DNA of 33,133 nucleotides from Phycisphaerales bacterium (GTDB lineage: Bacteria; Planctomycetota; Phycisphaerae; Phycisphaerales; SM1A02). The notes beneath the pieces were generated by a model, which had not been told where the DNA came from, ran no database searches, and worked only from the letters and a program-made list of their open reading frames with translations. Positions 6,945 to 25,341 of the stretch are shown here, in pieces; within the stretch, counting starts at the first letter, position 1, and the number at the start of each line of letters is the position of its first letter. Both the position numbers and the translations under genes were made by a program. The stretch covers positions 1-33,133 of the forward strand of contig JAPKCC010000030.1 of assembly GCA_028823105.1 (NCBI GenBank). Direction: 5' to 3'.

Positions 6945-8147
6945 TCAACCGAGCAGGAGACGTTCGACCGCCGGCACCAACGCCGTCACCCCGAATCCCG
7001 CCAGCATCGCGGCCAGCCCGCTCGAGAGCACCAGGATCACCACTTCAGTGGCGATGATCAGGGGAACCCTTGAAGGCGTGCAGCCAATCAGGTGCATGGT
7101 CTCGATCTCGGCGGCACGGATGCGGACCGACAAGGCAATCACCACCGCGATTAAGAGAACCGTTGCAACGGCCACCACGCCCAGTACGGCGAGCAGGATT
7201 CGCCGGACCCTGAACACCTCGACCAGCAGCCGATCGACCACCTTGGCAGCTCGGACCAGTTGAACCCGGACTCGGCCGGTCTCCGCCCGCGCGAAGAGGA
7301 TCGTCCCCGCTTTCGCGTCACGAGGCAACACGATCGCCGCGTTGACCGGGAGATCCACCGTCTCTCCGTGAAAATGGAAATCAGCGACGTTCTCCGGCGT
7401 AATTTCCACAAACTCGTGGATCGCCGCGTTCATTCGCACCACGGAAGGCTCGTCGTCACCGCCGGTGCGACCCATCACCAGACGCTCATCGACCTCTTCA
7501 TCGACCTTGATGTGGCCATGACCACGGCCTTGCACGATCCAAGCCGTGCTGGTCGACGCGAAGACCGCGGCGTCGTCGGGACTGCCCGACTCGGCGAGGA
7601 CGCCGACCACCCGCATCCGCAACGGGTAGGCCCCGGCGAGATCAAAGATCTCCCGAGGTTCGGTCACGATCTTGTCATCGACGACGATCCCCTCGCGGGA
7701 GGCGACCGCAGCGCCGACCACGCATTCTCCGGCCATCGCGAAATTTCTGCCTGACGAAATCTCTAGGCCACGAAATTCCAGGTAATCCGGATCGGTGCCG
7801 ACCAACGGCCCGCCCTTGACGCGATCACCGAAGACCAGCGGCAGCACCATCGCCAGATCGTCGGCGCGAAGCGCGTCGACCTCGGCCTGGCTGATCGTTG
7901 CCGCGGGAGGTTCTCGAAAGTAGATCGCGGAAAGCACAAGGTCGATCGGTGATCCGGCGGCGCCGGCGACCAGCGGCGTTGAATCCGCTCGAGCCCGAAG
8001 CGCCTGCTCACCCGCGTCGACGAGACGATCGATGGCGATCGGAAGGAAGGCGACGAGAAACAACGCGACGCAGAGCAGGGCGGTGCGACCCCGATGATGG
8101 CTCAAATGTTTGCGGGCTAGGAAGAACGCGTGCCGAAGTCCCGTCAT
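6945..8147 (-). CDS. ABC transporter permease, FtsX/MacB/LolC-type
   Basis: The 400-residue protein has one membrane segment near residues 20-42 (ALLCVALFLVAFLP), a large extracytoplasmic domain at about 45-310, and three further segments at the C-terminus. This is the four-helix topology of FtsX/MacB-type permeases, which couple ATP hydrolysis to work in the periplasm rather than importing solutes. The ATG overlaps the stop of the upstream ATPase gene as ATGA, so the two form one transporter. The pair is divergent from a ZnuA-like lipoprotein gene, which may supply a partner or the substrate context. The periplasmic domain contains a short His-rich stretch, VENVADFHFHGE-like, of unknown meaning. 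The substrate is unknown; lipoprotein or metal-related roles are both possible. Confidence 0.8.
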   Translation of the reverse strand: MTGLRHAFFLARKHLSHHRGRTALLCVALFLVAFLPIAIDRLVDAGEQALRARADSTPLVAGAAGSPIDLVLSAIYFREPPAATISQAEVDALRADDLAMVLPLVFGDRVKGGPLVGTDPDYLEFRGLEISSGRNFAMAGECVVGAAVASREGIVVDDKIVTEPREIFDLAGAYPLRMRVVGVLAESGSPDDAAVFASTSTAWIVQGRGHGHIKVDEEVDERLVMGRTGGDDEPSVVRMNAAIHEFVEITPENVADFHFHGETVDLPVNAAIVLPRDAKAGTILFARAETGRVRVQLVRAAKVVDRLLVEVFRVRRILLAVLGVVAVATVLLIAVVIALSVRIRAAEIETMHLIGCTPSRVPLIIATEVVILVLSSGLAAMLAGFGVTALVPAVERLLLG

Positions 8148-8851
8148 GACGGTGCCTCCGTAACTCGACCGACGCCGTCGGTCCGCGTCAGGCCTTCGCC
8201 GAGATCCACCACTCGATCGAAGGCGTCGAGCAGATCATGGTCATGGGTCACGGCGAGCACTGCAGCGTGCTTCTCGCGAGCGGCATCGAGCAACGCTTCC
8301 AGAATGACCCGCTTGTTGGCAGGGTCGAGGTTGCCGGTCGGTTCGTCGGCCAGCACTATGCTGGGTTCGGTGACCAACGCACGGCAGATCGCGGTCCGTT
8401 GACGTTCGCCGTGGCTCAATCGCGTGATGCCACGCCGACGAAGATGGGCGATTCCCAACCGCTCGAGAAGACCATTCGCCCGGTCCCGGGCCGCCGGATC
8501 GAGTCGCAGTCCGCCGAGACGGAACGGAAGAAGAATATTCTCCTCGACGTCGAGATGCTCGAGCAGACGAAAATCCTGAAAGACGAATCCGATGCGGGCG
8601 AGTCGAAGGCTTCGCCGCGCAGATTCTCCGAGCGTCGATAGATCAGTCGTGTCGATCATCACCCGCCCGGATCGTGGTGTAATGATCCCCGCCGCAAGGC
8701 GGAGCAACGTCGTCTTCCCGCAACCGCTTGGACCGATCACGGCGATCGACTCGCCACCACGGACCTCCAGCAAAGGTACGGCGAGGCGGAATCCATCAAC
8801 GGCACCCGCGGGTGCCGGATAGTCGAATTGAAGATCAGTCAGACGAAGCAC
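8144..8851 (-). CDS. ABC transporter ATP-binding protein, LolD/MacB-type
   Basis: The 235-residue ATPase has Walker A GPSGCGKTT, signature LSHGERQR, Walker B IVLADEPTGNLD and the switch histidine VTHDHD. DEPTGNLD is typical of the LolD/MacB/FtsE group and agrees with the permease that follows by ATGA overlap. I chose the GTG at 8851 (VLRLTDLQFDY) because a TATGGT -10 box sits 8 nt upstream. Longer frames starting with repeated Met-Arg-Val codons lie upstream of that box, inside the coding start of the divergent lipoprotein gene. If the ATG at 8872 were used instead, its mRNA would need a different promoter. The ATPase acts at the cytoplasmic face as a dimer. Confidence 0.87.
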   Translation of the reverse strand: MLRLTDLQFDYPAPAGAVDGFRLAVPLLEVRGGESIAVIGPSGCGKTTLLRLAAGIITPRSGRVMIDTTDLSTLGESARRSLRLARIGFVFQDFRLLEHLDVEENILLPFRLGGLRLDPAARDRANGLLERLGIAHLRRRGITRLSHGERQRTAICRALVTEPSIVLADEPTGNLDPANKRVILEALLDAAREKHAAVLAVTHDHDLLDAFDRVVDLGEGLTRTDGVGRVTEAPS

Positions 8852-8858
8852 GGGGGCG

Positions 8859-8865
8859 TACCATA
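8859..8865. promoter_or_regulatory. overlapping divergent -10 boxes TACCAT / TATGGT
   Basis: The heptamer TACCATA contains a plus-strand box TACCAT (8859-8864), 6 nt before the ATG at 8871. It also contains a minus-strand box TATGGT (8865-8860), 8 nt before the GTG at 8851. The two boxes share five bases, so the two promoters should compete for RNA polymerase. Confidence 0.6.
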
Positions 8866-8870
8866 CCCGC

Positions 8871-8915
8871 ATGACCCCCATGATCCGCATGACCCGCATG
8901 ACCCGCATGACCCCA
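8871..8915 (+). repeat. 9-bp repeat array of in-frame ATG codons
   Basis: Five units of consensus ATGAYCCSM (three distinct variants, ATGACCCGC twice in a row) run from the start codon onward. Each carries an in-frame ATG, so there are five candidate starts at 9-nt steps. A decayed sixth unit lies at 8862-8870 and overlaps the -10 box. Confidence 0.9.
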
Positions 8916-9842
8916 TACCTCTCCACTCTGCGACTTTTCCTCGGACTCAGCGTCCTCCTGATCGGCTCGGCCTGCGACCGTCCGGAGGCCCCCGGCCGAG
9001 GCGTCAGCGATCCGCGGACCATCGCGGTGTCCAACTATCCGTTGGCGTACTTCAGCGAGCGGATCGGCGGCGAGCGGATCAACGTTGATTGGCGGATCCC
9101 GAAGGACATCGACCCGAGTTCCTGGTCCCCCGACGGCGATGATCTCGCCGCGATCCAGGGCGCCGACCTCATCTTCCTCAACGGAGCGACCTACGAGAAG
9201 TGGCTTCCGACGGCGAGTCTCCCCGTGAGCCGCGTCGTCGACACCACCGCCGGGGTGAAGGATCAGCTCCTCCCTTCAGGCGACGGCTCCATTCACGCAC
9301 ATGGTCCGGAAGGCTCGCACTCCCATGTCGGTACCGCATCGACCACGTGGCTCAACCCGGAGATCGCCATCGCCCAAGCCACCATGATCCACGATTCACT
9401 GGTGCGAATCCTGCCCGCCCATCAGGAGGAATTCACTTCCAATCTTGGACTTCTGATTCGAGAACTCCAGGAACGGAGCGCCCCGATCGAGCAAGCCGTC
9501 AACGCCGCTCCGAAGACTCCCGTCTTCTTCAACCGTCCGGTCTACCAGTATTTGGTGGACCGATTTCGCATGAATGGAACATCTCTGCAATGGGAGGCCG
9601 GCGCGACGCCGACCACCGAGCAACTCGAGGAACTCGAGGCACTCCAAGTTGACCATCCGGCGGCGTGGTTCATCTGGGAGTCGCCACCGACTCCCGAAGC
9701 GATCGCCGCGCTCCAGGAGCGAGGTTTGCAAAGCATCGTGTTTGCACCGTGCGGAAACCGCCCCGAATCCGGCGATCTACTCGAGACCTTCGACGCGAAC
9801 GCCATCGAACTCCGTCGCGTCTATGGCGTCGAGGAGGATTGA
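8871..9842 (+). CDS. degenerate ZnuA-like metal-binding lipoprotein
   Basis: The 323-residue protein is a lipoprotein with lipobox IGSAC (Cys35) and the overall plan of cluster A-I (ZnuA/TroA) solute-binding proteins: IAVSNYPLAYFSERIGG at about 51-67, a His-rich loop at 142-152 (H142, H144, H150, H152), TTWLNPEIA at 158-166, and a C-terminal lobe. The usual ligands look lost. DPHxYEP reads DPSSWSP (81-87), DPHxWL reads STTWLNP, and the third histidine region reads FFNRPVYQYL (219-228). E270 may remain. It is divergent from an FtsX-type ABC pair, with no ZnuB-type permease seen. It may sense or sequester a metal through the His loop, or bind a different ligand. The 3' end overlaps the convergent methyltransferase gene by 22 bp. 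Five in-frame ATGs make the exact start uncertain. Confidence 0.72.
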   Translation: MTPMIRMTRMTRMTPYLSTLRLFLGLSVLLIGSACDRPEAPGRGVSDPRTIAVSNYPLAYFSERIGGERINVDWRIPKDIDPSSWSPDGDDLAAIQGADLIFLNGATYEKWLPTASLPVSRVVDTTAGVKDQLLPSGDGSIHAHGPEGSHSHVGTASTTWLNPEIAIAQATMIHDSLVRILPAHQEEFTSNLGLLIRELQERSAPIEQAVNAAPKTPVFFNRPVYQYLVDRFRMNGTSLQWEAGATPTTEQLEELEALQVDHPAAWFIWESPPTPEAIAALQERGLQSIVFAPCGNRPESGDLLETFDANAIELRRVYGVEED

Positions 9843-25237: not shown

Positions 25238-25250
25238 AGGTCAGGTCCGG

Positions 25251-25257
25251 TACTATA
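25251..25257. promoter_or_regulatory. overlapping divergent -10 boxes TACTAT / TATAGT
   Basis: The heptamer TACTATA carries a plus-strand box TACTAT (25251-25256) toward the FG-GAP gene and a minus-strand box TATAGT (25257-25252) toward the HtrA-like gene. The arrangement matches TACCATA at 8859-8865. Confidence 0.55.
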
Positions 25258-25341
25258 CCCGGCAGAGGCTCTTCCCAGAATTCGCCGAGCCTGCCGTTGC
25301 AACCCGGCTACGACCGCTCTTTCCTCGGAAAACCACCACTC

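Follow-up and report, generated by a model that had tools for sequence, protein, structure and literature searches.

A symmetric -10 element conserved between divergent ZnuA-like and ABC transporter genes of a marine planctomycete lineage, a probable bidirectional promoter

The window, that is, the whole stretch of 33,133 nucleotides analyzed here, is contig C133 of the 3.35-Mb draft genome G000, a Phycisphaerales MAG of a marine planctomycete whose nearest named relatives are other Phycisphaerales MAGs such as Phycisphaera sp. TMED9. A gene for a ZnuA-like metal-binding protein, which would be a lipoprotein by our reading of its N-terminus, diverges from the gene of an ABC transporter ATPase, presumably LolD/MacB-like. 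The stop of the ATPase gene is overlapped by the start of a gene for a MacB/FtsX-like permease. The features of the locus are listed in Table 1. In the initial annotation, the heptamer TACCATA was described as two hexamers on opposite strands, TACCAT and TATGGT, with five bases in common, lying 6 and 8 nt from the starts of the ZnuA-like lipoprotein and the ABC ATPase in an intergenic region of 19 bp; the sequence agrees with each of these values.

Table 1. Features of the divergent locus, in window coordinates.
Feature	Position	Strand	Basis or remark
TACCATA, candidate shared symmetric -10 element (TANNNTA)	8859-8865	unstranded	sequence, conservation and genome-wide placement
GTACCATAC, TACCATA plus flanks	8858-8866		
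Predicted -10 hexamer TACCAT of the ZnuA-like gene	8859-8864	+	first T (T1) at -12 of ATG 8871
Predicted -10 hexamer TATGGT of the ABC ATPase gene	8860-8865	-	T1 at -14 of GTG 8851
Whole intergenic region, 19 bp	8852-8870		
ZnuA-like metal-binding protein (PF01297), ATG 8871, predicted leaderless	8871-9842	+	profile match
ABC transporter ATPase (PF00005), GTG start, predicted leader of 0-2 nt	8144-8851	-	profile match
MacB/FtsX-like permease (PF12704)	6945-8147	-	FtsX match under its cut-off
9-bp tandem repeat ACCCGCATG, 5.4 copies	8865-8913	+	repeats the start codon in frame

The heptamer has the geometry of a symmetric -10 element, with TANNNT on both strands, common bases, and -7T and -11A reciprocally paired. 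The sigma-70 -10 consensus is TATAAT, and the two hexamers each agree with it at 4 of 6 positions. A scan of positions 8700-9050 returned no sigma-70 -35/-10 pair, and no GGAG-type Shine-Dalgarno motif was seen by eye on either strand of the 19-bp gap in the window. The exact heptamer is found once in the window against 0.11 expected, with at least one copy in 11 of 100 shuffles, and TANNNTA is not enriched (2 observed, 2.46 expected). As this count is at chance level, the mere presence of the motif is not significant, and the weight rests on position, conservation and genome-wide placement rather than on bare occurrence.

The 9-bp tandem repeat spans the ZnuA start and adds in-frame ATGs on both strands; it was not seen in the sequences of relatives. 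On the minus strand of the window, further in-frame ATGs are located upstream of the ABC GTG, the nearest 21 nt off (8872), within or at the repeat. In the relative G003 (locus L005), no ABC start codon other than the GTG occurs ahead of the upstream stop. This supports a gap of 19 bp and rules out, for that genome, an ABC gene beginning at an ATG further upstream. We also rejected the idea that TACCATA is an outlying unit of the repeat, since the element is present in close relatives that lack the repeat.

ZnuA-like matches were found in 48 of the 61 genomes searched. A search of 181 family genomes gave 35 ZnuA matches at E <= 1e-30, and loci were obtained for 30 of them. Among the loci obtained, the ABC gene is divergent from znuA in 26 genomes; at nine further loci the permease and ZnuA-like genes are co-directional, together with the ATPase gene in eight. 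One member of the genus, G002, has no ZnuA match at E <= 0.001. TANNNTA is present in the gap of 11 out of 11 examined genomes from three genera, namely g1 (G000, G001 and G003-G007), g50 (G096 and G098) and g27 (G033 and G110). The middle triplet is CCA, TCA, GGA, CGA, CGG or GCC; G007 carries GTACCATAC in its gap, and the form in G003 is the palindrome GTATCATAC. The outer TA..TA is the same in all 11 genomes, whereas the triplet is free and the spacers change. Loss of one box in close relatives keeping both genes, which the initial annotation named as a refuting outcome, did not occur: both boxes exist in 7/7 genus genomes that have the pair and in 4/4 genomes examined from the two further genera.

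The distances around the element vary. The gap is 19-20 bp in the five closest genomes, 24 bp in G033, 33-37 bp in G004, G005 and G098, 63 bp in G096 and 90 bp in G110. The distance from the ABC start to T1 of the minus box is 14 nt in the five closest genomes, 12 nt in G004, G005 and G098, 18 nt in G033, 37 nt in G096 and about 63 nt in G110. Expressed from the hexamer, the distance is 8 nt in the window and four close relatives, against a genome-wide optimum of 6, which is the value in G004, G005 and G098; it is at least 12 nt in G033, G096 and G110. The ABC messages of G096 and G110 would therefore carry a real leader. On the plus strand, six genomes have T1 at 12-13 nt from the ZnuA start. 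In G004, G005, G098, G096 and G110 the lipoprotein ATG is about 28-34 nt from the element and preceded by GGAG, and the element is retained. A chance resemblance or coding conservation, with no promoter at all, would agree with the chance-level frequency of TANNNTA in the window. We regard it as extremely improbable, given that the distance to the ABC GTG shifts by 2 nt between lineages, which does not fit a conserved reading frame, and that TA..TA stays constant around a freely varying middle triplet.

The shared element is absent in two other genera. No TANNNTA was found in the extracted gap at any of 15 divergent loci, four from g17 (L016, L040, L042 and L046) and eleven from g57 (the other loci of L038-L051); the grouping into three genera with the element and two without was made after the data had been seen, and related genomes are not independent. 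At 13 of these 15 loci, TANNNT stands at -12 of a ZnuA start and is followed by C, G or T, in no case by A; the script found no leaderless znuA box at L050 and L051. In the four g17 loci, the single ABC start codon detected close to the aligned end is a TTG, which leaves a gap of 30 bp between it and the ZnuA ATG. Twelve nt before this TTG there is a TA (TAAAGA, TAAAGT, TAGAGA and TACACA, by eye) that stands apart from the znuA box; the sixth base is T in one locus and A in three, so that full TANNNT occurs in 1/4 only. We take the g17 gaps to hold two separate boxes in place of a shared one, though just one of the four shows the full hexamer. Hence a divergent pair does not require a shared element, and a short gap alone does not bring one, which makes the bidirectional reading of TACCATA slightly less likely. 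The idea that relatives lose the element when the gap is long was ruled out by the same four 30-bp gaps, and the contrast is one between genera. The four g17 gaps also include a conserved stretch resembling TATCGGCGTACACT, seemingly two adjacent, non-shared boxes for the TTG-started ABC gene and znuA.

To place the two boxes among other genes, start codons were inferred with a home-made codon-score caller, which has one known miscall (L203), over samples from two genomes, 315 kb of G000 that include the window and 361 kb from the relative G006. Relative to the start codon, TANNNT peaks sharply where its first T is at -12, as in 21 of 221 genes of G000 and 12 of 240 of G006, over a background per position of 0.64 and 0.71, respectively, among first genes. 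Counted at -12/-13 in G000, it precedes 25 of 146 first genes and none of 57 internal genes (p 2e-4); the contrast in G006 is weak and not significant (13/154 against 3/66, p 0.40). A Shine-Dalgarno motif seldom accompanies these sites (1/25 first genes in G000 and 0/13 in G006). The peak makes leaderless promoters look common in this lineage, where TANNNT of this type may be useful for the correction of start codons. It adds to the record for Planctomycetes, in which, according to PMC5397173, leaderless or S1-type signals had been inferred from one species; the main text of PMC3160421 has no planctomycete term. T1 of the window's ZnuA-like gene lies exactly at the peak position of -12, the leaderless -10 spacing. 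The initial annotation considered both genes leaderless; the ZnuA spacing agrees with this, and the ABC message may bear a leader of 0-2 nt rather than none. Among the TANNNT genes of leaderless type in G000, a C is frequent at -1 (23/28 at spacing 12).

The base that completes the minus-strand box is an A directly after TANNNT, and this A is rare. It follows 20 of the 764 TANNNT sampled in G000 and 20 of the 1037 sampled in G006; among leaderless sites it follows 2 of 29 in G000, the element of the window included, and 0 of 20 in G006. This bears on the reading that the lipoprotein gene alone uses the element, with the minus box as a by-product and the ABC gene transcribed from inside the lipoprotein gene. 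The reverse complement of TANNNT is ANNNTA, so that any such box gives the other strand -11A and -7T free and one more base is needed, and znuA in g17 and g57 retains its own TANNNT box without a shared one. However, the rare A is present in 11/11 genomes of three genera, the corresponding base is C, G or T at the 13 g17 and g57 loci with a leaderless znuA box, and by eye no Shine-Dalgarno motif precedes the ABC GTG. We therefore consider the by-product reading unlikely. A base pair needed by the second direction alone has been kept across three genera while its neighbours changed; symmetric -10 promoters are known, and selection keeping them at divergent pairs is harder to show.

The motif GTANNNTAC is rare in both genomes, with 21 sites in G000 and 22 in G006, and all 43 sites were classified. 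Divergent gaps hold 13 of the 21 and 14 of the 22. The others in G000 are four in genes, three tandem and one at an edge; those in G006 are seven tandem and one in a gene, where the tandem site L203 was counted as called although it belongs to an AMP-ligase pair that is divergent by orthology. As controls we took 16 of 138 GTANNTAC sites and 16 of 218 GTANNNNTAC sites, of which 2/16 and 0/16 fall in divergent gaps and 10/16 each in genes. The G000 sites of GTANNNTAC differ from these 32 control loci with a Fisher p of 1.7e-5. Among intergenic sites only, 27 of 37 are divergent, and among the controls 2 of 10 (p 0.004). Of the intergenic bases in the samples, 32% lie in divergent gaps, and against that share the placement gives p 8e-5 in G000 and 1e-3 in G006. 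The density of the looser TANNNTA favours divergent gaps in G000 and is no higher in them than in tandem gaps in G006. At 11 of the 13 divergent G000 sites the motif recurs at the orthologous G006 pair (at the AMP-ligase pair the match covers the right-hand gene only), and such orthologous sites are not independent; eleven divergent pairs thus retain a GTANNNTAC site in both genomes. Two of the 13, the TACCATA locus and the AMP-ligase pair, have a start codon no more than 15 nt away on each side. In total numbers, GTANNNNTAC has 118 and 100 sites and GTANNTAC 70 and 68 in the two genomes, against 21 and 22 for GTANNNTAC. By our reasoning, the excess of GTANNNNTAC may be partly explicable by Tyr-x-Tyr codons and so is no proof of avoidance; GTANNTAC is the fairer comparison.

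The AMP-ligase pair is built in the same way as the ZnuA/ABC locus. At G000:C56:6816-6842 (L119), a 21-bp gap between two ATGs is centred on the TACCATA core. The pair is found in 8/8 genus genomes, with TACCATA 7 nt from the CAT and from the ATG (6 on one side in G005); both genes were translated in six of them, while one gene was matched in G006 and the DNA only in G002. Named from sequence reading, the products are an AMP-ligase-like protein of 490 aa and a lipoprotein of 255 aa whose C-terminal part is SPOR-like. GTACCATAC occurs exactly twice in G000, in the ZnuA/ABC gap and at this pair. Across the 8 genus genomes, the pattern CAYN{5,8}TANNNTAN{5,8}RTG matches 28 times forward (1-8 per genome), less often than its backwards control (19-40 per genome). 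Eight of the matches are the second pair, one per genome, and in five genomes the ZnuA/ABC locus is matched; the rest look like chance or are unsettled.

As GTANNNTAC is palindromic, it could instead be the operator of a dimeric regulator, for example a metal sensor, with promoters elsewhere or overlapping by chance. The palindromic element (GTATCATAC in G003) precedes the gene of a metal-binding protein, and the identical 9-mer recurs at one other locus. On the other hand, the conserved arms are just 3 bp with a variable triplet, the AMP-ligase/SPOR pair and the remaining GTANNNTAC sites flank other genes (most unnamed), and the plus box has its T1 precisely where the genome-wide leaderless peak lies. 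A palindrome of metal type, TGTAGCATATGCTACA, has a different sequence. With at most one mismatch it occurs once per genome in 6/8 genus genomes (in G005 with one), including L092 1362-1377, L093 2851-2866 and G000:C178:6102-6117, and in G006 and G001 it adjoins a second znuA gene, so it looks like the operator of a metal regulator. Its single G000 match is the one on contig C178, and the TACCATA locus has none at this threshold. A metal operator at TACCATA was thus ruled against, and the operator reading in its general form is improbable.

TACCATA is probably a bidirectional promoter, one of the known kind with a symmetric -10, whose two transcripts would be leaderless or nearly so. Sigma would bind the same 7 bp in either orientation. 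On the plus strand T8864 would act as -7 and A8860 as -11; on the minus strand the base paired with T8864 would act as -11 and that paired with A8860 as -7. With 7 as the distance between -10 and start, the starts are predicted at 8871 and 8853, 18 bp apart. The rightward start would be at or next to ATG 8871 and the ZnuA-like mRNA translated without a leader; the leftward start would fall at about 8853-8851, giving the ABC-permease mRNA a leader of 0-2 nt. A single site for RNA polymerase would then feed the binding protein and the presumed ATPase and permease, and joint supply or co-expression of binding protein and transporter would be the likely benefit, in line with the nine loci at which permease and ZnuA-like genes are co-directional.

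That symmetric -10 elements drive divergent transcription in bacteria, as the initial annotation had it, is described in PMC12825309 and PMC10268837. Like the bidirectional promoters of Warman, Grainger and colleagues treated there, the present element has overlapping -10s on opposite strands, -7T and -11A reciprocally paired, and predicted starts separated by 18 bp, the commonest start spacing of such promoters. What differs is that here the predicted starts coincide with the start codons or lie no more than about 2 nt from them, and that the whole gap is 19 bp. Steric exclusion bears out the remark that polymerase could serve a single direction at a time; according to PMC12825309, however, basal activity was too low for competition at the five bidirectional promoters of E. 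coli tested there. The -10 motif directly before the start codon is shared with leaderless genes of M. tuberculosis (PMC3898074) and Deinococcus-Thermus (PMC12340547), and here it is also seldom accompanied by a Shine-Dalgarno motif; the differences are another phylum and one motif that would serve two leaderless genes. The terms 'divergent', 'bidirectional' and 'symmetr' are absent from the main text of PMC12340547. The lysG-lysE locus of M. tuberculosis (PMC5648196) likewise has divergent genes with overlapping promoters, one lysE promoter giving a leaderless transcript; it differs in its 108-bp gap, a regulator-bound inverted repeat, and a leaderless promoter that is second and separate.

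For the lineage as a whole, opinion can be divided evenly on whether GTANNNTAC marks a maintained class of bidirectional promoters that sometimes form the entire intergenic region, where a 7-bp element would give two leaderless mRNAs about 18 bp apart and the promoter, both starts and the start codons would fit in a gap of about 19-21 bp. If so, the scarcity of GTANNNTAC elsewhere in the genome would be in line with accidental symmetric promoters being selected against. Nature offers extreme test cases in the two shortest pairs, because little beyond a shared -10 fits between their start codons. The symmetric -10 class is already known; the conserved double-leaderless form and the genome-wide motif in this lineage are, as far as our searches go, new within the open-licence literature. 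No report of the same arrangement (leaderless together with bidirectional or overlapping divergent promoters, or planctomycete start sites) was recognised in that literature, as judged by titles and abstracts except for PMC5648196.

Two further sets of sites were noted. In the window, GTACTATAC, another of the GTANNNTAC sites that recur in G006, lies at 25250-25258 in a 154-bp divergent gap, and GTATAGTAC is found at the orthologous G006 pair. In both genomes, GTACTGTAC stands beside an apparent opposite-strand tRNA identified by eye (L148 position 490 and L168 position 1501), and these sites are possible bidirectional promoters of a tRNA and an mRNA.
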